From assembly GCF_017875235.1 (NCBI RefSeq), contig NZ_JAGGMI010000002.1, forward strand, positions 62,001 through 126,000: a stretch of 64,000 nt of DNA, in the 5' to 3' direction. The translations under genes and the position numbers were made by a program. Source of the DNA: Asticcacaulis solisilvae (GTDB lineage: Bacteria > Pseudomonadota > Alphaproteobacteria > Caulobacterales > Caulobacteraceae). The notes beneath the pieces were generated by a model. That model saw only the letters and a program-made list of their open reading frames with translations. It searched no databases and had not been told where the DNA came from. Numbering within the stretch: the stretch's first letter is position 1; each line of letters starts with the position of its first letter. This document shows positions 24,570-37,395 of this stretch, piece after piece.

Positions 24570-26348
24570 ATGCACATCTACCGTTCACATACCTGCGGCG
24601 CCCTGAGGGCCTCCGACGCGGGCCAGGCCGTCCGCCTTTCGGGCTGGATTCATCGCAAGCGCGACCACGGCGGCCTGCTGTTTATCGACCTTCGCGACCA
24701 CTACGGCCTGACCCAGCTGGTGTTCAATCCGTCGTCGCCCGGTTTCGCAAAAGTCGAGCGCCTGCGCGCCGAAAGCGTCATCCGGATCGACGGTACGGTC
24801 GTCGCGCGCGACGCCGAGGTCGTTAATGCCAACCTGCCGACCGGCGCGATCGAAGTCGTCGTCAATGATGTAGAGATACTGTCCGAGTCGGCCGAACTGC
24901 CGCTGCCGGTCTTCGGCGAGCCCGACTACCCGGAAGAGCTGCGCCTCAAGAACCGCTTCCTCGACCTGCGCCGCGAGACCCTGCACAAGAACATCGTCCT
25001 GCGTTCCAAGGTCATCCAGTCGATCCGCAACCGCATGGTCGACCAGGGCTTCCTCGAATACCAGACCCCGATCCTGACAGCCTCGTCGCCGGAAGGCGCG
25101 CGCGACTTCCTGGTGCCGTCACGTCTGCACCCGGGCAAGTTCTACGCCCTGCCGCAGGCGCCGCAGCAGTTCAAGCAACTGTTGATGGTTTCCGGTTTCG
25201 ACCGCTATTTCCAGATCGCGCCGTGCTTCCGCGACGAAGACCTGCGCGCCGACCGCTCGCTCGAATTCTATCAGCTCGACGTCGAGATGAGCTTCGTGAC
25301 GCAGGAAGACGTCTTCGCGGCCATCGAGCCCTTGATGCACGGACTGTTCACCGAGTTCGGCGAAGGCAAGCGCGTGTCCTCCTATCCGTTCGTGCGCATT
25401 CCCTACAAGGAATCGATCGCCAAGTATGGGTCGGACAAGCCGGACCTGCGCAACCCGATCGAGATGCAGGACGTGTCCGATCACTTCCGCGGCGGCGGCT
25501 TCGGCCTGTTCGCGCGTATCCTTGAGACGCCTTCCAACGCTGTCTGGGCCATTCCGGCGCCAAAGGGCGGTTCGCGCGCCTTCTGCGACCGCATGAATTC
25601 GTGGGCGCAGGGCGAAGGCCAGCCGGGCCTGGGTTACATCTTCTGGTCGGAAGACCAGGGCGCATGGGGCGGCCCGATCGCCAAGAACCTCGGCGCCGAC
25701 GCCACGACCGCACTGATGAGCTCGCTGGGTCTGGGGCAGGGCGATGCCGCCTTCTTTGCCGCCGGCGACCCGAAGGTTTTCTACAAGTTCGCAGGCTCGG
25801 CGCGCACCAAGGTCGGCACCGACCTGAACCTGGTCGATGAAGACCAGTTCAAATTCTGCTGGATCGTCGACTTCCCGATGTTCGAATGGAACGAGGACGA
25901 AAAGAAGGTCGACTTCTCGCACAACCCGTTCTCGATGCCGCAGGGCGAGATGGACGCGCTGTTGACCAAGGATCCGCTTGAGATTCTGGCCTATCAGTAC
26001 GACATCGTCTGTAACGGCTATGAGCTGTGTTCGGGCGCGATCCGGAACCACAAGCAGGAGATCATGCTGAAGGCGTTCGAGATCGCCGGCTATGGCCAGG
26101 ACGTGGTCGAGGCGCAGTTCGGCGGCATGCTTAATGCGTTCAAGTACGGCGCGCCGCCGCACGGTGGCCTGGCGCCGGGCATTGACCGCATCGTCATGCT
26201 GCTGGCCGGCCAGACGGCGATCCGCGAAGTCATTGCCTTCCCGCTGAACCAGCAGGGCCAGGACGTGATGATGAGCGCACCGTCGGGCGTGCAGGAGAAG
26301 CAGTTGAAGGAACTGCATATCCGGACGGCTTTGCCGATCAAGGTGTAA
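24570..26348 (+). CDS. aspS: Aspartyl-tRNA synthetase
   Basis: A 592-residue class II synthetase of the bacterial type. An N-terminal OB-fold anticodon-binding domain (about residues 1-105, [26 protein letters not shown]) is followed by the catalytic core with FLDLRRETL, motif 2 [19 protein letters not shown] (FRDED), a bacterial insertion domain (about 290-425), and motif 3 [13 protein letters not shown]. It charges tRNA-Asp, and in organisms lacking asparagine synthetase also tRNA-Asn; this cannot be told from the sequence by eye. Monocistronic with a terminator downstream. Confidence 0.97.
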
Positions 26349-26594: not shown

Positions 26595-28127
26595 ATGAAA
26601 AAGGGAACACGGCAGGCGTTGGCCGCCGTACTGTGTCTCGTCGCCTCCACGGTCGTGATCAGCGCCTGTGGAGGCGGCGGCGGTGGCGGAGGAAGCTCCG
26701 GCGGAGGAGGCGGCGCATCGTCCTCATCCGCGGGTCCGGAGGCCGGCACCGTGGCCGTCGTCGATGATACTGTCACGCTGAAGATAAAAAATGCCAGCAG
26801 CGGCCAGTATCTGACGATCGCGGGCGCCAGCCAGACCGCCGGCGCGAAACTGGCGCACGGCGCCGACGGCTCAGGCCGCGAACTGCTGTGGCACGCCATC
26901 ACCATGGACAGCAGCCAGTATGTGCTGGAAAACATGCTGACGCACCAGGTCGCGGGCATCAAGGACGCCTCGACCGCCGCCAATGCCGAAGCCGTGCAAT
27001 GGGCCGACAACGGCACGAACGACCATTTGTGGACGCTGTATAGACTGACAAATGGCAACTACCTGATCCGCAATGCCCGCTCGAACCTCTACCTGCAAAC
27101 CGACGGAACAAACGTCACCCAAGGCGCCCGCGCCACATCGGGCAATGCCCAGGAATGGCAGCTGACGGCCGGCTCGGCCGTCTATCCGGCGCCGAAGGCC
27201 GTGTCCGGCGCGGGCGTCGATGTCCACGACCCCAACCTGATCCGCGACAGCGCCGGCACCTACTGGCTCTTCGGCACCCACAATACCCTGGCCAGTTCGG
27301 CCGACCTGACCACCTTCACCAAGGTCGCGACGGGATCGTTCGCCACCGACTTCAGCTGGTGGGCGTCAAAGAACACGACCGGCGGCGGAGGGCGCACCGA
27401 TCTTTGGGCTCCAAGCGTCATGTTCGCCAACGGCAAGTACTACCACTACTATTCGATCCCGATCTATGGCACGCCGGGCGTCGCCGGCACAAATATGGGC
27501 GCCGAAGCCGTCATCGCGCTGGCGACCGGCCCGACCCCGACCGGTCCGTGGACCGACGCCGGCGAAATCATCGCAAGTTGCGGCACACGGCCGGGCTGCA
27601 CGACAAAGTACAACGCCATCGACCCGGCGCCGTTCGTCGACGATACCGGCAAGTGGTGGATGATCTTCGGCTCGTGGGAAGACGGCATGCACATCCTTGA
27701 GCTCGATCCGGTTACGGGCCTGCGCAAGGGTACGGCCTTCCATGACATCGCCAAGCGCCCAGGCGGCGTCGAAGGTCCGTTCATCTTCCCCTACACGGTC
27801 AACGGCACGAAATATTACTACTACTTTGCTTCGGCCAATCCGTGCTGCAACCCGAACAGCCGCTATCGCGTCCTGGTCGGGCGCGCGACGTCGCCGACGG
27901 GGCCGTACTTCGATCGCGGCGGGCTGAACCTGCTGGACGGCGGCGGCACGATCCTGTTGAGCGCCCATGGCAATATCAAGGGCCCGGGCGGCCAGAGCGT
28001 CATCGACGCGGCGGGTCAGCCCATGCTGGTCTACCACTATTATGATGGCGCTTCGAACGGCGCGCCGAAGCTGGGCCTGAACAAACTGGCCTTCGATAGC
28101 GACGGATGGCCTTACATCGCACCCTAA
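26595..28127 (+). CDS. Lipoprotein arabinanase: ricin-type lectin domain plus GH43 catalytic domain
   Basis: A 510-residue surface or periplasmic lipoprotein. The signal sequence ends at a lipobox VISAC (Cys27), followed by a Gly/Ser linker. A beta-trefoil ricin-like sugar-binding domain (about residues 55-195) contains repeated motifs GQYLTI, ENMLTHQVAG and RNARSNLYLQT. The GH43 five-bladed propeller (about 205-510) shows VHDPNLIRD (base Asp), AIDPAPFVDD (pKa-modulating Asp) and GGVEGPFIFPY (acid Glu). This fits endo-1,5-alpha-L-arabinanase acting on pectic arabinan. It has its own promoter with operator and a terminator. No arabinose genes are adjacent. Confidence 0.92.
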   Translation: MKKGTRQALAAVLCLVASTVVISACGGGGGGGGSSGGGGGASSSSAGPEAGTVAVVDDTVTLKIKNASSGQYLTIAGASQTAGAKLAHGADGSGRELLWHAITMDSSQYVLENMLTHQVAGIKDASTAANAEAVQWADNGTNDHLWTLYRLTNGNYLIRNARSNLYLQTDGTNVTQGARATSGNAQEWQLTAGSAVYPAPKAVSGAGVDVHDPNLIRDSAGTYWLFGTHNTLASSADLTTFTKVATGSFATDFSWWASKNTTGGGGRTDLWAPSVMFANGKYYHYYSIPIYGTPGVAGTNMGAEAVIALATGPTPTGPWTDAGEIIASCGTRPGCTTKYNAIDPAPFVDDTGKWWMIFGSWEDGMHILELDPVTGLRKGTAFHDIAKRPGGVEGPFIFPYTVNGTKYYYYFASANPCCNPNSRYRVLVGRATSPTGPYFDRGGLNLLDGGGTILLSAHGNIKGPGGQSVIDAAGQPMLVYHYYDGASNGAPKLGLNKLAFDSDGWPYIAP

Positions 28128-28182: not shown

Positions 28183-28677
28183 TTAACGCAGGGTGCAGAC
28201 CGGGATGCGCAGGCCGCGCGGAAGTTCGGTCGCTTCGTCACCGCACGTCTGGTCGAGCTGGCGCTGGGTCAGGCCGGTGGCCGAACGCATCTCGGCGCCC
28301 GAGAAGTTGACGCCGTCCAGGATCGCGCCCTTGAAATTGGCACCTTCGAGGTAGGCGCCGACGAAGGTGGCATTGGTCAGGTTGGCGCCGGCGAAGCTGA
28401 CGCGGCCGAAGAGCGAGGCGGTGCCATCCAGGTCGCGCAGGTCGCCGCCGGCGAAGGTCGAGCCGTTGAACACGCCCATGGACAGGTCGGCCTGGCGCAA
28501 ACGGGCGCCGGCAAAGTTCTTATTGCGCAGTTCGCGGCCGTTGAAGTCGGCCTGGAACAGGTTGCACTTCGGGCAGCTGGCGCCGGACTGGGCGCGGCTG
28601 ATCTGGCCGGCGTTCTGCGCATAGGCGGGCGCTGACAGGGCGGCAAGGGCCAGGATGGCGAGAACGATACGTTTCAT
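28183..28677 (-). CDS. Exported pentapeptide-repeat protein
   Basis: A 164-residue protein with a signal peptide (residues 1-20, ending AYAQN). From about residue 40 it has A(D/N)LxX-type pentapeptide repeats (FNGREL RNKNF AGARL RQADL, then GANLT NATFV GAYLE GANFK GAILD), which fold as a right-handed quadrilateral beta helix. Two C-terminal cysteines (QTCGDE, VCTLR) and a pair near the start (SCPKC) may form disulfides. Role unknown; export argues against the gyrase-protecting (Qnr) type. Confidence 0.85.
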   Translation of the reverse strand: MKRIVLAILALAALSAPAYAQNAGQISRAQSGASCPKCNLFQADFNGRELRNKNFAGARLRQADLSMGVFNGSTFAGGDLRDLDGTASLFGRVSFAGANLTNATFVGAYLEGANFKGAILDGVNFSGAEMRSATGLTQRQLDQTCGDEATELPRGLRIPVCTLR

Positions 28678-28965: not shown

Positions 28966-31713
28966 TCATCCGTTCTCCACGTCTTCCTCGACCGATTCAC
29001 GAAGGTCCGCTTCCGCGGCAGCCTTGCGCCCGAACGGCACAACAACCAGATTGCCAGTCGCCGTCCCACGCGCAAAACCCTTTGAAATCAACTGCGAAGC
29101 GGGCAGTGCCTCATCCGGCGGATTATCCCCGGCACCTAACCCATCTGCATTCAGCGCATCCGGATCGGCATTGGCGAGGTCCTCGCGGTCAAGATATGAA
29201 ATCGCCAGCTCGCGGAAGATATAGTCCAGGATCGAGGTCGCCGAGCGCACCCGGTCATTGCCGGTCACCGGCCCGGCCGGCTCGAACCGCGTAAACACGT
29301 AAGCATCGACGAACTCTTCCAGCGGCACGCCGTATTGCAGACCGATCGAAATCGCGATGGCGAAATTGTTCATCAAAGACCGGAAGGCCGCGCCTTCCTT
29401 ATGCATGTCGATGAATATCTCACCCAATGCCCCGTCGCCATATTCGCCGGTGTGGATATAGACCTTGTGGCCGCCGACGGCCGCCTTCTGGATATAGCCC
29501 TTGCGGCGGTCGGGCAGCTTGTGGCGCGTGCGATCGCGTTCGATGATCTTTTCGACGACGCGCGGCGAAGCGGCCTTTTCGACCGCAGGCGCACGTTTTG
29601 GCGCTTCTTCCATTTCCGGGATATCGAGCGCGAAATCCTCCGGCGCATCGGCGCGCGCCACCGACAGGCTGCGCAGCTGGATGCCGGCGGCCAGCGAATA
29701 GACCTTCATGGCGTCCGTCACGCCCTGGTCCCACTGGAGCTCGACCGGAGCCGTGGACGGCGAATCGACCAGGACATCCAGTCTTTGCCGCAGGGTCAGG
29801 CGTGCCTTGATCGACAAAGGCGCCAGCAGCGCCCAGGCCATGTCATCGACGGCCTTCAGCCCGTCAAGCTCGCGTGTACCAAAGAGGTAGGCGTCGGCCT
29901 CATTGATCTCCTCCGCGGTAAAGCCCATGGTCTTGAGCAGGTCGAAGCCCGGATCGGCAAGGTCCGCTTCGCTCAAACCCCAGATATCACGGACGAAATT
30001 GGCGTCGAGATGGTTGAGCGAAACGACATCGCGCAAGCAGGTGCTTTCGGCCAGAGCCTCATGCAGACGGCCGGTCTCGAAGTCGCTCAACCCCTTGGCC
30101 TTCAGGCTCAAATCATTGATATGCGGGGCGTCGGCCAGGTTGCGATGACCCAGTCGCGCATCGCGCACCAGGGTCGTATCAACCCCGATGACCTTGATGC
30201 CCGACAGGACGCAGGCCTTCAGCACCGGCAGCATCAGGCCATCGTCGCTTTCCATGAAGGTGGCGATATCGCCGACCTGCTGGTCGCCCAATCCAACACC
30301 CAACCGCAGCGACAGCTCGGCATCGGCATAGAGCGCCGTCACCTGGGCATTGCGCAGACCGGTCTTCTTGGCCAGCTTCAGGCCCTGTTGCAGCAGGTCG
30401 AGCGCGCGGCCCTTGAAGGCCGACACGCCGTTCAACGCCGTTACCTGATAGAGCTGGCGGCTCAGGCGGTCGATCTGCTCGGCCTTGCCGGCGGTAAAGC
30501 CATCGAAGGCGCCGATGCGCACGGCCAATGCGGCCGAGGCGTTGACGGCGGCCGCTTCGAACAGGGCGAACAGGTGGCCGGCAAAATCCAGCCCTTCCGG
30601 CCCGCGCAGCGACAGGCCTTGCGTCATCGCCGCTTCGGCCAGGCCGCCGATCGTCAGGGCCAGGGGCCGTTCCGAAGCACGGCGCTGGGCATCCGCGGAA
30701 GAGGCGGCGTAAGAAATAGACGCTTCGATATCAAGCGCGTGCACCCACAGGTTCACGCAGTCGATAAAGGCGTCTTCGCTGAAAACGCCGTCGATCAGGA
30801 AGCGCTCGACCTGGATGGCGGCCTTGGGCGCGACGTTCTGGGCCTCGACGGCTTCGGCGTCCGACGGCGAAAAGACGAGGTGGACGCCCGAGGCCTCCAG
30901 CGCCGTTTCGGCCAGCAGGACGGCCGACGGATCACCGGCGCTGACCAGGTCGCGCTGGGCGATGACGGCGTGGTGGCGGACGGCTCGCGGACCAGAAGCC
31001 TCACCCACTTGCCAAGGCGCGCCGCCGGAGTGGCTGAGCAGGATCTGACGCGCGATCAGCCCGTCATTGGCGCCTAAACGCCTTGCCTTGGCGCAGGCGC
31101 GGGCGAGGGCAGTGTTATGCTTGGGACTGGCGCGGTGCTCGCCTTCGGCGCGCTGGACGGCGCTATGGATCTCCTGCAGCGCCTCGGCCAGCCGCGTCTG
31201 ATTGGCGTCGCGCAAAGTCTGGGCGCGCGTATCGAGCAGCAGGCGATTCAGCGTCTGGCGGCCGACATGATCGTCGAGATAGAGCGGAGCGGTTTCAGCT
31301 GCGCGCGCCACGACATCGCCGGCGGTCGGATGGACGCGATGCCCGGACGCCAGCGCCACGGCCGGCGCAGCTAGGCCCGACAGCAATGTCGCTTCGATGG
31401 CTTCAGCGAAATCGGCCGCCTGGTCCGGGTCACTGAAATGGCCCAGCCGCAGCCCCCATTGTGCCAGACGATGCGCGTAATCGGCGGTCGCCCCGCCAAA
31501 AGCATCGCTGTCGGCGTCACCGGCGCGCGCCCAGGTGCCGGACGGCAGATCGTGCGCAAGTGATTCGGCCCAGTCGAGCCAGGCTTCGGCCTGCGCGGAC
31601 GTCAGGCTGCGCGGACAGATGACCTCGATAAAGGCCTCAGACCGTTCAATAACCCGCGATTCCAGGTCGCCGACCGTGCTCAGGCGGCTAAGGGCAGGGG
31701 TTAAAAAGGCCAT
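28966..31713 (-). CDS. Degenerate class II ribonucleotide reductase homologue with TSCPD domain (probable pseudoenzyme)
   Basis: A 915-residue protein. The C-terminal TSCPD domain (about residues 735-850) is well conserved and NrdJ-like: [40 protein letters not shown] and the [14 protein letters not shown] segment. Upstream, traces of the NrdJ core can be followed: [20 protein letters not shown] about residues 375-395, [20 protein letters not shown] about 600-620, and [17 protein letters not shown] near 680. The finger-loop cysteine motifs and the Cys-rich redox tail of alphaproteobacterial NrdJ are missing; only five cysteines occur in the whole protein, none in a CxxC pair. The frame is intact. 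ATG 31713 has GGGAGG five bases upstream. Catalysis is unlikely; a regulatory role is inference. Confidence 0.8.
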
Positions 31714-31950
31714 GACAACCTCCCGGGGGTTCACGCAATTGGACCAAGCTATCGCCATCCACGCGAAGCTTCAATAAATCTGGTGGGAAAATGCAAAGTC
31801 GTCCACAATATATTGATGTCGAACCATTCCGCCTCAGGCGAAATTATTTCCATGTGCGGCATAGGCGCGCCTTTACCTTGCGCGGCCGGCTTATTATAAC
31901 TGCCTTTGACGTGTACGGGACGCCGGTTCCGGTTTGAGAGGGTTTTGATC

Positions 31951-32346
31951 TTGCTCGACAAGGTTTTTCTGTGGTGGAGCGGCGCGACGCTGGGCACCTT
32001 GTTCACCATCGGCAAGCGTGGCCGCCTGGTCGGCAGCGACGAGTTCGGCAACAAGTACTACGAAGACCGTACGGCCAAGAATTCGTACGACGCCGGCCGT
32101 AAGCGCCGTTGGGTGATCTACAAGGGCTATGCCGACGCCTCGAAGATCCCGCCCGACTGGCACGGCTGGATGCACTATATCTACGACACACCGCCGTCGG
32201 AGCAGCCCCTGCCACGCAAGGCCTGGGAACTGCCGCACATGCCGAACATGAGCGGCACGCCGCTGGCGCGCTTCCCGACCGGCTCGCTGAATGCCGAGGG
32301 CGAGCGCCAGGCGTCGACCGGTGATTACGAGGCATGGAAACCGTAG
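31951..32346 (+). CDS. NDUFA12-family complex I accessory subunit
   Basis: A protein of about 131 residues homologous to mitochondrial complex I subunit NDUFA12 (17.2 kDa), one of the few supernumerary subunits shared with alphaproteobacteria. Motifs are GTLFTIGKRGRLVGSDEFGN, KYYEDR, RRWVIYKGYADASKIPPDWH and GWMHYIYDTPP. No ATG exists in frame; TTG 31951 (after GAGAGGG with nine-base spacing) gives the usual start LLDKVFLWW read as Met-Leu-Asp. TTG 31945 is an alternative. The DUF2155 gene begins two bases after the stop, an association common in this group. Confidence 0.85.
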   Translation: MLDKVFLWWSGATLGTLFTIGKRGRLVGSDEFGNKYYEDRTAKNSYDAGRKRRWVIYKGYADASKIPPDWHGWMHYIYDTPPSEQPLPRKAWELPHMPNMSGTPLARFPTGSLNAEGERQASTGDYEAWKP

Positions 32347-32347
32347 C

Positions 32348-33181
32348 ATGAGCAAGGGACTGCCGCACATGTCGCGCTCGCGCCTGGCAGCATTCCTGCT
32401 GGCCGGGGCGGCGCTGTGTGCGGTTGTCCCCGTGATCGCGCAGGTCGCCCCGCCGTCGCGTGGTGACCGTGACCGCGACCGTCCCAACTATGTCGATAAT
32501 GCCGATTACGACCGTCAGCCCTATTATGTCGACGGCGTCGAATACAAACCCTATGTGCCGGAAAAGAAGCCGTCGCGCCCTTCCGCCAGGCCCGCCGCCG
32601 AGCAGGTAAAGGCCGCGCCCCAGTCTCAGGGCAGCCAGGACCCTGCCTATGTCAGCCCGGCGCCGCAAACCGAACTGCGGCCGTTCAATCCGTCGTCGGC
32701 TTCGGCCCAGGCTTCATCGGCCGCGCCGCGCCAGCACGCCCAGTCGTCGTCTTCGTCAACCAGCGTTCCCTCTTACGCCCGCGCCAAGCGCCCGCGCTAC
32801 GGCGTGGCGATTATCGAGGCGCTCGACAAGATCTCGTCGGAAAGCGTGCGCTTCGAGGCGCCGATCGGGCAGCCCGTGCGCTACAAGGGCCTGATCTATA
32901 CGATCAAGGCGTGCGAGACCTCAGCCGATGACGAGCCCATGGCCGATGTCATCGCCTATATGCAGGTCCGGACCAATCCGGTGACGGCGGCGAACAACAC
33001 GCAGACCGTACGCTCCAAGGAAATCTTCCGCGGCTGGACCTATGCCTCAACGCCCAGCCTCAACCCGCTGGAACACCCGATCTACGACGCCTGGGTGATT
33101 GCCTGCCGCAAGCCCTTGGCCGCACCCGTCGCTGTGGCGGCTCCGGCCCCGGCGGCACCTGCTGCGGCTCCGAAGTCGTAG
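32348..33181 (+). CDS. DUF2155-containing exported protein
   Basis: A 277-residue protein with a signal peptide (ending AVVPVIAQ, about residue 35), a long Pro/Ser/Ala-rich disordered middle, and the DUF2155 domain at about 155-260 (AIIEALDKISSESVRFEAPI, YTIKACETS, then EIFRGWTYASTPSLNPLEHP). Two cysteines in the domain are conserved (KACET, VIACRK). It is co-transcribed with the NDUFA12-like gene. Function is unknown; the pairing suggests a link to envelope or respiratory complex assembly, which is inference. A second start at 32369 is possible. Confidence 0.85.
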   Translation: MSKGLPHMSRSRLAAFLLAGAALCAVVPVIAQVAPPSRGDRDRDRPNYVDNADYDRQPYYVDGVEYKPYVPEKKPSRPSARPAAEQVKAAPQSQGSQDPAYVSPAPQTELRPFNPSSASAQASSAAPRQHAQSSSSSTSVPSYARAKRPRYGVAIIEALDKISSESVRFEAPIGQPVRYKGLIYTIKACETSADDEPMADVIAYMQVRTNPVTAANNTQTVRSKEIFRGWTYASTPSLNPLEHPIYDAWVIACRKPLAAPVAVAAPAPAAPAAAPKS

Positions 33182-33388: not shown

Positions 33389-34084
33389 TTAACAACCGGA
33401 CAGCAGCTTCATAATCTCGCGCCCGGGTGTCGCGCCGGGCAAGGCGTAGAAATCGGCCTTCTCATCGACGGCATTGGCCAATAGTTTCAGATACTCGGTC
33501 TTCGGCAACTCAACTACGCCGAACTGACGCAGATGGTCGGTCTGGAACTGGCAATCCAATAACGTAAACCCGCCCGCGCGCAGCCTTCCCACCAGATGCA
33601 CCAAAGCAATTTTAGACGCGTCGGTGGCGCGCGACACCATGCTTTCGCCGAAGAAGGCGCCGCCGATCGCCACACCATAAAGCCCCCCGACCAGTTCATT
33701 GTCGCGCCAGACCTCGACGCTGTGCGCCAACCCCCGGCCGAACAAGGCCTGGTACAGCGCCTGGATCGAATGCGAAATCCAGGTCGACGGCCGGTCATCT
33801 GCGCTTTCGGCACACAGCTCGATGATCTGCTGGAAGGCCGTGTCGATACGCACGACATAGTCGTCCTTGCGCACCGTCCGCGCCAGCCGTGACGGGATGT
33901 GAAAGCCGTCGAGCGGCAGAACGCCCCTCAGCGGCGGATCGACCAGGAACAGGTATTCGTCGTCGCGCCGGTCCGACATCGGGAACACGCCGGTGCGATA
34001 GCAGTTGATCAGGTCGTCGAGGGTAAAGCTTGGCAAGGCTTGGTCGCAGCAGAGAAAGAGACGCGATCTAGCCTGATTTCCCAC
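33389..34084 (-). CDS. aat: Leucyl/phenylalanyl-tRNA--protein transferase
   Basis: A 231-residue enzyme that adds Leu or Phe to N-terminal Lys or Arg of proteins, marking them for ClpS-ClpAP. Family motifs: DLINCYRTGVFPMSD, the WISHSIQALYQALFGRGLAH segment, SVEVWRDNELVGGLYGVAIG and FFGESMVSR. The C-terminus ATPGREIMKLL is as expected. The first in-frame start is GTG 34084, with a weak ribosome site; the family start could be a few codons further in. The gene follows exoD after 27 bases on the same strand. Confidence 0.93.
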   Translation of the reverse strand: MGNQARSRLFLCCDQALPSFTLDDLINCYRTGVFPMSDRRDDEYLFLVDPPLRGVLPLDGFHIPSRLARTVRKDDYVVRIDTAFQQIIELCAESADDRPSTWISHSIQALYQALFGRGLAHSVEVWRDNELVGGLYGVAIGGAFFGESMVSRATDASKIALVHLVGRLRAGGFTLLDCQFQTDHLRQFGVVELPKTEYLKLLANAVDEKADFYALPGATPGREIMKLLSGC

Positions 34085-34111
34085 AAAATTTCCAAGTGGA
34101 AATCGAAGCTA

Positions 34112-34792
34112 TCAAAAGGAAAGTTCGGGAATCTGAATCCCCAGCGACAGCCAGATTTCGTAGAGCAGGCCGACATAGCGCTCATACATCCGCACGACGA
34201 CCTCGATGGCGTACTTGCCGAACATATACACAAAGACAAGAGTGCCGGCCGCTACCGCCATCGCCGCCAGCATGAAGATACCGTCGCGCTGCAAAACGCC
34301 AAGGCCGGTCAAGGCGACAGCGATACCGGGCAGGAAATTGGCGCCCGGCATGGGCAGCAGAAGGACCAGCGCCATGACAAGCGTCTGGAGGCCGGCATAG
34401 AACATGCCGGGCCGGCTGGTCAGGGCCGTCAGACGCGGCCTGGCGAGATACTCCAGCTTATGCAGCAGCTTGCCGCAGGCACGCAGGGCCTTGCGCAGGT
34501 CGTTACCCTTGAACGACCAGCGCTTGACGAACCCCGGCATCCACAGCGTCTTGTTGCCGAAGATCATCTGGAACGACGGCCCAAGCAGCAACAGGCCGAA
34601 CAGGGTCGAAATGCCCGGAATGTTCGGGACGCACATGGGCAGGGACAGGATGAGCAGGATGAGCCCCAGGCCCCGGCCTTCGAGATGCTTCAGCAGGGTG
34701 CCGACCGTGATGCGGTCGCCATCCAGCGACGTCGCCAGGTCATCGACCAGCTGCGACGCCGCCTTGCCGGAGCCTTTCGCCTTGCGCGCCAT
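34112..34792 (-). CDS. ExoD-family membrane protein
   Basis: A 226-residue inner-membrane protein homologous to ExoD of Rhizobium. A short basic leader and helix (VDDLATSLDGDRITVGTLLK) precede about four or five hydrophobic helices (around 45-75, 125-150, 155-185). The motif LSLPMCVPNIPGISTLFGLL is characteristic. ExoD affects exopolysaccharide production in rhizobia, but its biochemical function is not known. Probably co-transcribed with aat. Confidence 0.85.
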   Translation of the reverse strand: MARKAKGSGKAASQLVDDLATSLDGDRITVGTLLKHLEGRGLGLILLILSLPMCVPNIPGISTLFGLLLLGPSFQMIFGNKTLWMPGFVKRWSFKGNDLRKALRACGKLLHKLEYLARPRLTALTSRPGMFYAGLQTLVMALVLLLPMPGANFLPGIAVALTGLGVLQRDGIFMLAAMAVAAGTLVFVYMFGKYAIEVVVRMYERYVGLLYEIWLSLGIQIPELSF

Positions 34793-34883
34793 TCCCTATC
34801 CCTGTCCCTGTTTCCTGACCGCAGCCCCACGGTCTGCGTTAACACTATCACGCGGCAGCAGGGGATCAATGCATCGGAAGACA

Positions 34884-34920
34884 AGAAAAAAGCCCTGCGG
34901 TTCACACAGGGCTTTTATAA
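34884..34920 (-). terminator. Intrinsic terminator after accC
   Basis: AAAAAAGCCCTG and CAGGGCTTTT form a stem with an A run on one side and TTTT on the other. It ends the accB-accC transcript reading leftward. Confidence 0.85.
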
Positions 34921-34940
34921 TTTTACAGGCGCGTCGTTGA

Positions 34941-36296
34941 TCAGTGCGCTTCCTGCGATTTGATCCACTTTTCCAGCCAGTGGATGTTGTAATCGCCGGT
35001 CTGGATGTCTTTCTCACCCAGCAGGTCGAGGAACAGCGGGATCGTCGTGTCAATGCCGGTGACGACCGTCTCGCCCAGGGCGCGCTTGAGGCGGGCCAGG
35101 GCTTCGGGCCGGTCGCGGCCGTGGACGATCAGCTTGCCGATCAGACTGTCGTAGTAGGGCGGGATCGAATAGCCGTTATACATGGCCGAATCGAGACGCA
35201 CCCCTAAGCCGCCCGGGGCATGGAAGTCCGTGACCGTGCCGGGCGACGGCACGAAAGTACGCGCGTTTTCAGCATTGATTCGCACTTCGATCGAATGGGT
35301 GCGGATGTCGATATCCGACTGCTTGAACGACAGCGGATGGCCTTCGGCGATGCGGATCTGTTCGCGCACCAGGTCGATATCGGTGACGTATTCGGTGACC
35401 GGGTGTTCAACCTGAAGACGGGTGTTCATTTCGATAAAGAAGAACTCGCCGTCCTCATAGAGGAACTCGATAGTACCGACGCCGAGATAGCCGATCTTCT
35501 TGATGGCGTCGACGCAGGTCATGCCGATCTTGTCGCGCGCCGCCTTGTCGATGACGGGTGAGGGCGCTTCTTCCAGCACCTTCTGGTGGCGGCGCTGCAA
35601 GGAACAGTCGCGTTCGCCCAGGTGGCAGACATTGCCGTGGCTGTCGGCGATCACCTGGATTTCGATATGGCGCGGCTTCTGGAGATAGCGCTCCATATAG
35701 ACCGTACCGTCGCCGAAGGCCGCGGCGGCCTCGGTCTGGGCGCTCATGACCGCTTCGGCCAAGGCGTCCTTGTCCTTGGCGACCTTCATGCCGCGTCCGC
35801 CGCCGCCGGCCGCCGCCTTGATCAGGACGGGGAATCCGATGGTTTCGGCCGCCGCCATGGCTTCCTCGACCGAGGAGACGCCACCGTCGGAGCCCGGGAC
35901 CACGGGGATGCCCGAATCCTTGGCCGTCTGCTTGGCGCTGATCTTGTCGCCCATGACGCGGATGTGCTCGGCCTTGGGGCCGATGAAGGTCATGCCGTGG
36001 GCGCCGACGATCTCGGCGAAGCGGGCATTTTCCGACAAAAAGCCGTAACCCGGGTGGATCGCCTGGGCGCCGGTGATTTCAGCGGCCGCGATGATCGACG
36101 GGATGTTGAGGTAGGACTTGGACGCCGCCGGCGGCCCGATGCAAACGCTTTCGTCGGCTAGGTGGACGTGCATGGCCGACGCGTCGGCTTCACTATGCAC
36201 GGCGACGGTGGCGATGCCCATTTCCTTGGCGGCGCGGATGACGCGCAGCGCGATCTCGCCGCGATTGGCGATGAGGATCTTGTCGAAGGTTTTCAT
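34941..36296 (-). CDS. accC: Acetyl-CoA carboxylase biotin carboxylase subunit
   Basis: A 451-residue ATP-grasp enzyme that carboxylates biotin on AccB, the first half of malonyl-CoA formation. Motifs: ILIANRGEIALRVIRAAKEM at the N-terminus, the glycine-rich ATP loop AAAGGGGRGMKVA, EAPSPVIDKAARDKIG, FIEMNTRLQVEHPVTE and RINAENARTFVPSPG. Length and start are typical. It begins seven bases after the accB stop, in the usual accBC operon. Confidence 0.97.
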   Translation of the reverse strand: MKTFDKILIANRGEIALRVIRAAKEMGIATVAVHSEADASAMHVHLADESVCIGPPAASKSYLNIPSIIAAAEITGAQAIHPGYGFLSENARFAEIVGAHGMTFIGPKAEHIRVMGDKISAKQTAKDSGIPVVPGSDGGVSSVEEAMAAAETIGFPVLIKAAAGGGGRGMKVAKDKDALAEAVMSAQTEAAAAFGDGTVYMERYLQKPRHIEIQVIADSHGNVCHLGERDCSLQRRHQKVLEEAPSPVIDKAARDKIGMTCVDAIKKIGYLGVGTIEFLYEDGEFFFIEMNTRLQVEHPVTEYVTDIDLVREQIRIAEGHPLSFKQSDIDIRTHSIEVRINAENARTFVPSPGTVTDFHAPGGLGVRLDSAMYNGYSIPPYYDSLIGKLIVHGRDRPEALARLKRALGETVVTGIDTTIPLFLDLLGEKDIQTGDYNIHWLEKWIKSQEAH

Positions 36297-36303
36297 CTGA
36301 CGC

Positions 36304-36801
36304 TTACTCGAAAACGACGAGGGCTTCGCCGAATTCGACCGGCTGGGCGTCGCTGACGAGAATCTGGGCCACCGTGCCTTCGCGCGGCGACGGGATCGGG
36401 TTCATGGTCTTCATGGCTTCGACGATCAGTAGCGTCTGGCCCTGCTTGATCTTGTCGCCGACCTTGATGAAGGCAGGCGCGCCGGGCTGCGGCGACAGGT
36501 AAACCGTGCCGACCATGGGCGACTTGATGGCGTCCTTGGGGGCGCCGGCCGGTGCGGCTGCCGTTTCAGGAGTCGCAGCGGGCACGGCCTGTGGGGCGGC
36601 AGCGGCGGGTGCGGGTGCAGGGCTTTGCGGCGCCGCGACGTAGGACACGGCCGGGGCGGCGGTCAGTTGACGCGCGACGCGGATTTTCAGCTCGCCTTGT
36701 TCGACCTCGATTTCCGACAGATCGGTTTCCTTGAGGATGTCGGCCAGCTTGCGCACCAGCTTCGGATCGATCGGATCGGCTGGGGTTTTGGAAGTCGTCA
36801 T
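36304..36801 (-). CDS. accB: Biotin carboxyl carrier protein of acetyl-CoA carboxylase
   Basis: A 165-residue carrier with an N-terminal helical part (residues 1-45), an Ala/Pro-rich flexible linker (about 52-92) and a C-terminal biotinyl domain. The biotinylated lysine lies in VEAMKTMNPI, and SPMVGTVYLSP-thumb type sequence precedes it (IKSPMVGTVYLSPQPGAPAF). It is the first gene of accB-accC and follows aroQ by 42 bases on the same strand. Confidence 0.97.
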   Translation of the reverse strand: MTTSKTPADPIDPKLVRKLADILKETDLSEIEVEQGELKIRVARQLTAAPAVSYVAAPQSPAPAPAAAAPQAVPAATPETAAAPAGAPKDAIKSPMVGTVYLSPQPGAPAFIKVGDKIKQGQTLLIVEAMKTMNPIPSPREGTVAQILVSDAQPVEFGEALVVFE

Positions 36802-36843
36802 GTAATAACCTTGTATGCCGTCTTTTCCCGGGAAAAGACTGAG

Positions 36844-37287
36844 TTAGGCCTTATTTGTCATGGACTGGGCGGCTTGAATCGCCAGTTCATAACCAAACAC
36901 GCCGAAACCCGCAATAATGCCTTTGGCCGCCAGTGACACATAAGAGTGATGGCGGAAAGGCTCGCGGGTCTGAGGGTTGGACAGGTGGCACTCGATGACC
37001 GGTATGCTGAGGGCTTTCAGCGCATCGAGGAGCGCCACGGAGGTGTGGCCGTAACCCGCCGGATTGATGATCAGCGCGCAAGCTTTCTCGCGTGCTTCGT
37101 GAATCCAGTCGATCAGTTCGCCCTCATGATTGCTCTGGCGGAAGACGAGATCATAGCCGGTGCCCTCAAGGCGGGTACGGCAGGTCGATTCGATGTCCTT
37201 GAGGGTGGTGTAGCCATAAATTTCCGGTTCACGGACCCCAAGCAGGTTGAGGTTGGGGCCGTTGAGGACATATATGGTCTGAGTCAT
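36844..37287 (-). CDS. aroQ: Type II 3-dehydroquinate dehydratase
   Basis: A 147-residue dodecameric enzyme of the shikimate pathway. Motifs: [19 protein letters not shown] (catalytic Arg/Tyr lid), [36 protein letters not shown] and [19 protein letters not shown] (catalytic His). A GTG at 37296 extends it by three codons; ATG 37287 is preferred. It precedes accB on the same strand, an order often seen in alphaproteobacteria. Confidence 0.96.
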
Positions 37288-37395
37288 CGGGCTCACGGGC
37301 GGGTTGACGAAGCGGCACTTGTATCAACGGGGACGTTTCGCCACAAGTCGAACTATTCCGCAATCCCGCCGCTTTAGGAAAAATATGGTTCCCAA

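Follow-up and report, generated by a model that had tools for sequence, protein, structure and literature searches.

In the window, a 64,000-nucleotide stretch of Asticcacaulis solisilvae DNA, we examined a minus-strand frame whose ATG lies at 31713 and whose stop ends at 28966 (Table 1). The product has 915 aa, and an alternative in-frame ATG upstream, at 31758, would give a product of 930 aa. The original prediction of an intact 915-codon frame with a good ribosome site held: the coordinates were confirmed on the minus strand and GGGAGG stands 5 bases before the ATG. The names of the neighbouring genes (NDUFA12, DUF2155, aat, accC, accB, aroQ, aspS and pentapeptide-repeat) are our assignments by resemblance of the sequences.

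Table 1. Features of the eroded nrdJ gene, its product and its neighbours (positions in the window)
Feature	Position	Strand	Basis or remark
aspS, other border of the conserved locus	24570..26348	+	
510-aa frame between aspS and the eroded nrdJ gene, putative secreted glycoside hydrolase by resemblance	26595..28127	+	
Pentapeptide-repeat-like gene downstream	28183..28677	-	often retained beside the gene within the order
Eroded NrdJ (pseudo-RNR) gene, 915 aa + stop	28966..31713	-	1 match in own genome; matches in 188/199 family genomes
Residues 854-915, Cys-free tail	28969..29154	-	alignment
Residues 733-848, TSCPD / IscU-like domain, most constrained part	29170..29517	-	Pfam, alignments
Residues 709-730, low-confidence linker with VVEKIIER pattern	29524..29589	-	pLDDT <50; pattern also in canonical NrdJ
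Residues 452-467, where canonical NrdJ has its RNAQ..APTGTI loop; PTGT no longer present (reads ADAE)	30313..30360	-	alignment
Residues 298-461, RNR barrel remnant (PF02867)	30331..30822	-	Pfam match
Residues 1-297, N-terminal part without a reported RNR profile match, lacking the HACF and GSGTGxN segments of canonical NrdJ	30823..31713	-	profile search, alignment
Residues 282-286, SPSDA at the finger-loop position, where canonical NrdJ has NPCSE	within 30823..31713	-	alignment
Ribosome-binding site GGGAGG	31719..31724	-	read directly; 5 bases before ATG
NDUFA12-like divergent neighbour, conserved locus	31906..32346	+	
DUF2155-like neighbour, conserved locus	32291..33181	+	
aat, accC, accB, aroQ block	33389..37296	-	order conserved around nrdJ

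The profile searches related the product to ribonucleotide reductases (RNR). PF02867 matched residues 298-461 with 47.2 bits, above its cut-off, and the C-terminal TSCPD domain that had been predicted was found by PF12637 at residues 745-837 with 38.7 bits, above the gathering score of 22.8. NF005736, the NCBIfam model of alphaproteobacterial NrdJ, gave 353 bits, far below its cut-off of 1737, a strict one of which 5 of the 28 canonical-looking genomes of the order fall slightly short (1623-1728 bits). By phmmer the protein matched 7b9q with an E of 1.6e-18 across residues 299-619. The AlphaFold model (pLDDT 84.4) had NrdJ of Rhodobacter sphaeroides (7b9p) as its top fold match, with E 4.5e-25, TM 0.52, 912 columns and rmsd 9.8, and in this predicted structure the RNR barrel fold is retained. 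The two eroded core segments named earlier were both found in the protein, at residues 355-374 and 590-609, and the earlier count of only five scattered cysteines was exact (33, 207, 319, 501 and 559).

Class II RNR is described in PMC9669993 as carrying a finger-loop cysteine and a C-terminal tail with four zinc cysteines and a cysteine pair for re-reduction. In a motif alignment of 10 canonical and 34 eroded rows, all eroded rows coming from the order, none of the eroded rows had a cysteine in the finger loop, in HACF or at one of the two redox places of the tail (0/34), and the PTGT and GSGTGxN segments were lost in all 34. We take NPCxE to be the motif of the radical cysteine on the finger loop, HACF to be that of the active-site redox cysteine and PTGT to be the substrate loop. 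The catalytic cysteine, the redox pair and the Cys-rich tail had been reported missing from the sequence of one protein, and the absence of the catalytic cysteine and of the redox pair extended to all 34 eroded rows. A catalytic cysteine aligning at the finger loop, named beforehand as contrary evidence, was looked for by sequence alignment of the same 34 rows and was absent. In the Asticcacaulis protein the HACF segment is deleted in the alignment with canonical NrdJ, and its tail holds no cysteine, compared with six in canonical NrdJ and four in the other Caulobacteraceae genera examined. The four zinc-type cysteines of the tail were kept in 23 of the 34 eroded rows and the remaining 11 were the Asticcacaulis protein and its genus, so erosion appears to have taken the redox pair but spared the zinc site outside this genus. 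We infer that the Asticcacaulis protein would be unable to reduce ribonucleotides.

The loss was all or none. Among 138 uncut frames, drawn from loci picked by similarity to the Asticcacaulis protein or its domain (eleven contig-end-cut loci set aside, genome G007 entering twice as L026 and L187, and the reading omitting L024, L031-L033 and L114-L147), NPCxE, PTGT and HACF stood together in 69 and none of them in the other 69, with partial sets in 0. The motif-bearing frames had six tail cysteines in 67 cases, seven in one and none in one; the motif-less frames had four in 41 and none in 28. Two loci were peculiar. L046, a contig-cut locus of 5,225 b from a MAG, combines a canonical NrdJ barrel with a Brevundimonas-type TSCPD and 4-Cys tail and is probably an assembly chimera joined at the conserved domain. 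L172 (G333, family f45) holds a near full-length NrdJ frame of 1229 aa without NPCxE, PTGT or tail cysteines, perhaps an early stage of independent erosion.

We compared 59 loci. The gene order ran from aroQ, accB, accC and aat through the divergent DUF2155 and NDUFA12 genes to the nrdJ-type gene, often a pentapeptide gene, and aspS. Canonical nrdJ occupied this common locus in full in L165 and L094 and in part in L062, L060 and L182, which are without the right-hand part, and in L176, which is without the left end. The same locus held eroded nrdJ in families f1-f4, and stand-alone TSCPD genes in L168, L169 and L170, each with one or two of the genes missing. None of these neighbours was found within the available stretch of many canonical loci (L177, L178, L179, L180, L054, L056, L100 and others) or of the eroded L171 (f154). 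Judged by gene order, one conserved locus carries canonical NrdJ, eroded NrdJ or a stand-alone TSCPD frame of ~280 aa, depending on the lineage. The sequence comparisons thus identify the Asticcacaulis protein as a descendant of the alphaproteobacterial class II RNR NrdJ, worn down in place, and the Pfam and NCBIfam matches, the fold match and the motif loss in the alignments agree with what had originally been proposed, an NrdJ-derived protein without the reductase chemistry.

The cut-off of NF005736 was reached in none of the 199 genomes of the family, and was exceeded in 166 of 289 genomes of the class. The 120 genomes of the order comprised 28 canonical ones (23 over the cut-off and the five just below it), 83 eroded ones, part of which were confirmed by motifs while the rest were classed by score, and 9 without a match. 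By family, f5 was canonical throughout (24/24), f2 and f3 were eroded throughout (24/24 each), f4 had 4 canonical and 13 eroded genomes with 6 lacking the gene, and f1 had 22 eroded genomes, one of them via a partial match, with 3 lacking it. Outside the order, eroded or TSCPD-only forms appeared in f154, f45, f13 and f102; f31 and f104 had forms that diverged further. The frames of f13 and f102 are 278-282 aa long, with TSCPD present and no barrel match; they come from genomes of 1.2-1.4 Mb, and their loci have 27-29% G+C, values reminiscent of SAR11. In two other families the TSCPD identity goes down to 45-48%. These are the shorter relatives L173 (G392) and L174 (G319), with frames of 667 and 530 aa, in which erosion seems to have reached the tail domain; both adjoin NDUFA12/DUF2155 neighbours, and the accC-aat block is found in L173 only.

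We compared TSCPD identity between canonical and eroded pairs in bins of AccC identity, where the pairs are non-independent. It was 0.738 (39 canonical pairs) against 0.727 (14 eroded pairs) in the 55-65% bin, 0.765 (52) against 0.775 (91) in the 65-72% bin and 0.824 (12) against 0.808 (152) in the 72-80% bin. The bin above 80%, with only two canonical pairs, gave 0.941 against 0.867 (19 eroded pairs), which speaks against equal constraint. In a column comparison that omitted L025, L046, L051, L173, L174, L183 and L186, 68 of the 151 compared TSCPD columns had the same residue in at least 95% of both the 72 canonical and the 67 eroded rows; the clearest difference lay at residue 848, which is His in 72/72 canonical rows and Asn in 48/67 eroded rows, the Asticcacaulis protein included. 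These identities show that constraint on TSCPD, as far as sequence can tell, does not need a live barrel. Since the domain is held near-equally in live and dead proteins in three of the four bins, its function is probably independent of catalysis, and the retention of the tail while the chemistry was lost repeatedly in related bacteria suggests that the tail has a job of its own.

According to PMC9669993 (2022), the IscU-like domain at the C-terminus of class II RNRs has no reported role, and the IscU cysteines are missing from most domains of this kind. Our fold search of the TSCPD model returned no PDB match at an E of 0.001 or better, IscU being a weak match at rank 50 (E 1.4), and the domain profile matched no PDB chain by sequence up to E 10. 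Against BFVD the model had three matches at E <=0.001, all of them phage proteins named RNR. Two of these are domain-sized, A0A6J5L9T7 (184 aa) and A0A6J5KVY3 (136 aa), and are possible stand-alone phage TSCPD proteins; the third has 799 aa. The domain was also present in 5 phage and 19 plasmid records, whose named features are RNRs.

The Asticcacaulis genome (5.0 Mb, 34 contigs, 99.98% complete) contained no second match to the protein. The check for a second intact nrdJ that had been proposed thus found none, and the only other RNR large subunit detected by PF02867 was a class I-type NrdA on a different contig, with class I NrdB also present. In one list NrdB was found in 31/31 genomes (18 eroded, 3 stand-alone, 2 with divergent TSCPD, 5 canonical and 3 gene-less). 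It was missing from 13 of 14 canonical genomes, which had been chosen because they showed few RNR matches; among these 13, G316 is incomplete (71%). NrdR occurred in 24/24 genomes of all states and is therefore uninformative as a link. The presence of NrdB in every listed genome, eroded ones included, would suit a regulatory pseudo-subunit of class I RNR whose dead barrel, bound to NrdA or NrdB, adjusts the dNTP supply, and the predicted fold, still RNR-like, makes pairing with NrdA thinkable. However, canonical NrdJ with TSCPD occurs in the genomes without NrdB, so class I control cannot be the only role of the domain, and stand-alone TSCPD frames exist without a barrel to do the binding. We consider such a regulator unlikely. 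The TSCPD domains of L179 and L182, from canonical genomes without NrdB, are 71-72% identical to that of the Asticcacaulis protein. With the domain held as it is, this NrdB pattern makes it unlikely that the shared role lies in the catalytic activity of the adjoining barrel or in serving class I RNR alone.

How often nrdJ eroded was estimated from trees. By parsimony the AccC tree (52 rows) required at least 6 changes of state, with canonical on one side and eroded or stand-alone on the other. A quick five-gene tree (44 rows) gave 8, and in it the sparsely filled Hellea row fell inside f2; the four-gene tree was rebuilt without that row and without aat. It required 6 changes over 43 rows, or 5 without G350, a canonical row of another order oddly placed among f3, and the 33 rows of the order alone required 2. 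Our reading is that erosion occurred at least about five times, the changes being counted as losses because of the shared locus. Under a different history, nrdJ eroded once in the order long ago and canonical copies later returned by transfer. The order does need only two changes, the deep nodes are weakly supported, the two careful trees differ over f4 (one clade in the AccC tree, split in the four-gene tree), and the marker genes, mostly at the same locus, could have moved with nrdJ. However, grouping all of the order's 22 eroded rows in a single clade was rejected (p-AU 0.0048, for a group named after seeing an earlier tree), the canonical copies of f4 occupy the common locus (L165, L094), and further TSCPD-only or eroded forms are found outside the order (f45, f154, f102 and f13). 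A single erosion followed by return is thus quite improbable to us, and we keep to repeated erosion.

The barrel behaved differently from the tail domain. Its identity in canonical and eroded pairs was 0.626 and 0.189 in the AccC 55-65% bin, 0.611 and 0.215 at 65-72%, 0.635 and 0.240 at 72-80% and 0.763 and 0.384 above 80%, the eroded-row alignment including chance matches. The original prediction had offered as a possible function that the protein senses dNTP or cobalamin at the old ligand sites, which the fold, still NrdJ-like in the model, would allow. This part found no support. The segments presumed to be the substrate and active-site loops have been deleted or substituted, with the PTGT, GSGTGxN and finger-loop motifs gone from 34/34 eroded rows, and a barrel only 19-24% identical between distant eroded lineages, in three of the four distance bins, is unlike a kept ligand site, whereas TSCPD was held. 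There would be little chance of such a sensor.

Matches to the protein, some merely partial, were found in 188 of the 199 Caulobacteraceae genomes, with no internal stop among the matches listed. For 39 close pairs, all within Caulobacteraceae, dN/dS was 0.06-0.29 in the part before TSCPD and 0-0.06 in TSCPD where computable; 40 of 103 candidate pairs were computed, and one canonical pair yielded no dS. These ratios show purifying selection on both the barrel part and the tail domain, and since the part before TSCPD is also under selection, TSCPD would not be the sole part that matters. Conservation without catalytic cysteines under purifying selection had been expected of a pseudoenzyme in this family, and it was observed. 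We are almost certain that the protein is catalytically dead and selected. The gene has no match in five near-complete genomes of the family (G002, G049, G066, G017 and G157), nor in 9 of the 120 genomes of the order, and is thus not always needed. Genomes that lack it while 99-100% complete are G002, G049 and G066 (f1) and G213, G217, G221, G276, G284 and G292 (f4), and they should be useful for spotting a partner lost together with the gene.

A pseudogene was considered and rejected. The match is missing in some relatives and the barrel varies strongly among families, as in a decaying copy on its way out, the contrary outcome set beforehand; but with unbroken frames among the matches listed, dN/dS well below 1 in both parts and a match in nearly every family genome, we hold this to be extremely improbable. 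The protein might also still work as a reductase whose catalytic residues have moved, as a published pathway drawing of Caulobacter CCNA_01966 as NrdJ could suggest (PMC6538847). This has practically no chance, as the Asticcacaulis protein has five cysteines, frames of its genus have one to seven, and NPCxE, HACF, PTGT and the redox pair are all absent.

Taken as a whole, the best explanation, and one we find quite likely, is that nrdJ eroded in place while a folded barrel body and TSCPD were kept. Class I RNR would supply the dNTPs, and from the barrel the redox and radical cysteines disappeared together with the substrate loop and parts of the N-terminal half. The protein would persist as a folded, barrel-like body bearing the TSCPD (IscU-like) domain, in which the dead barrel may be a scaffold under weaker constraint and dispensable, as the stand-alone TSCPD frames suggest. 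TSCPD itself would dock to a partner present in both class-II-only and class-I-only cells. That the domain has an RNR-independent function seems likely from its conservation; docking to a protein as the mode of that function is a tentative suggestion. We also lean, somewhat less firmly than towards the independent function, to the view that alphaproteobacterial NrdJ combines two proteins, a reductase joined to a TSCPD module with its own conserved cellular role, and that the reductase died at least about five times where class I RNR was present. If so, the module lives on in a dead RNR body or alone, as in the ~280-aa frames of the 1.2-1.4 Mb genomes. This would amount to a natural separation experiment, in which the constraint on a domain stays nearly unchanged once the enzyme is dead, and it could be tested in C. 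crescentus.

The C. crescentus gene CCNA_01966 carries the annotation vitamin B12-dependent ribonucleotide reductase (PMC5869019). The motifs were absent from three Caulobacter loci (L034, L036 and L039), and what we say of Caulobacter rests on these loci and not on the sequence of CCNA_01966 itself. A C. vibrioides control genome matched NF005736 below the cut-off only; E. coli matched the model too, so the C. vibrioides match could be class I NrdA. If our reading is true, the annotated Caulobacter enzyme would not make dNTPs, the view that Caulobacter uses B12 for dNTP synthesis via NrdJ would need revision, and annotation by TSCPD similarity would overstate class II RNR. The text of PMC9531940 mentions that poorly aligned sequences, unlikely to be functional RNRs, were removed, and pseudo-RNRs may therefore be missing there. 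For Zymomonas, class I and class III RNR only are given in the relevant passage of PMC10746277. In the open-licence literature we found no paper on a pseudo-RNR family or on a separate role of TSCPD.

Betaherpesvirus R1 homologues such as M45 are relatives of the RNR large subunit that have lost catalytic activity yet persist in a different role. They are viral and derived from class I, unlike the NrdJ-derived Asticcacaulis protein. NrdJb of Pseudomonas aeruginosa, part of a split class II RNR, mediates disulfide exchange for its partner NrdJa (PMC4520616), and it resembles our case in being a protein that consists of the NrdJ C-terminus. However, the redox cysteine pair is absent from the Asticcacaulis protein, so NrdJb-like disulfide exchange is not expected of eroded proteins, and no separate NrdJa-like partner was found in the genome, where the protein query gave no second match and PF02867 found NrdA and the present gene only. 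The closest relative is class II NrdJ itself (NF005736; Rhodobacter sphaeroides 7b9p/7b9q). The two share the locus in part of the canonical genomes, the overall predicted fold and a TSCPD domain that is 66-80% identical in the canonical alignment rows, whereas the Asticcacaulis protein is ~300 residues shorter and lacks the catalytic and redox cysteines and the PTGT loop. Its TSCPD corresponds to the same region as the IscU-like domain of class II RNR C-termini, but is found here outside a working RNR.
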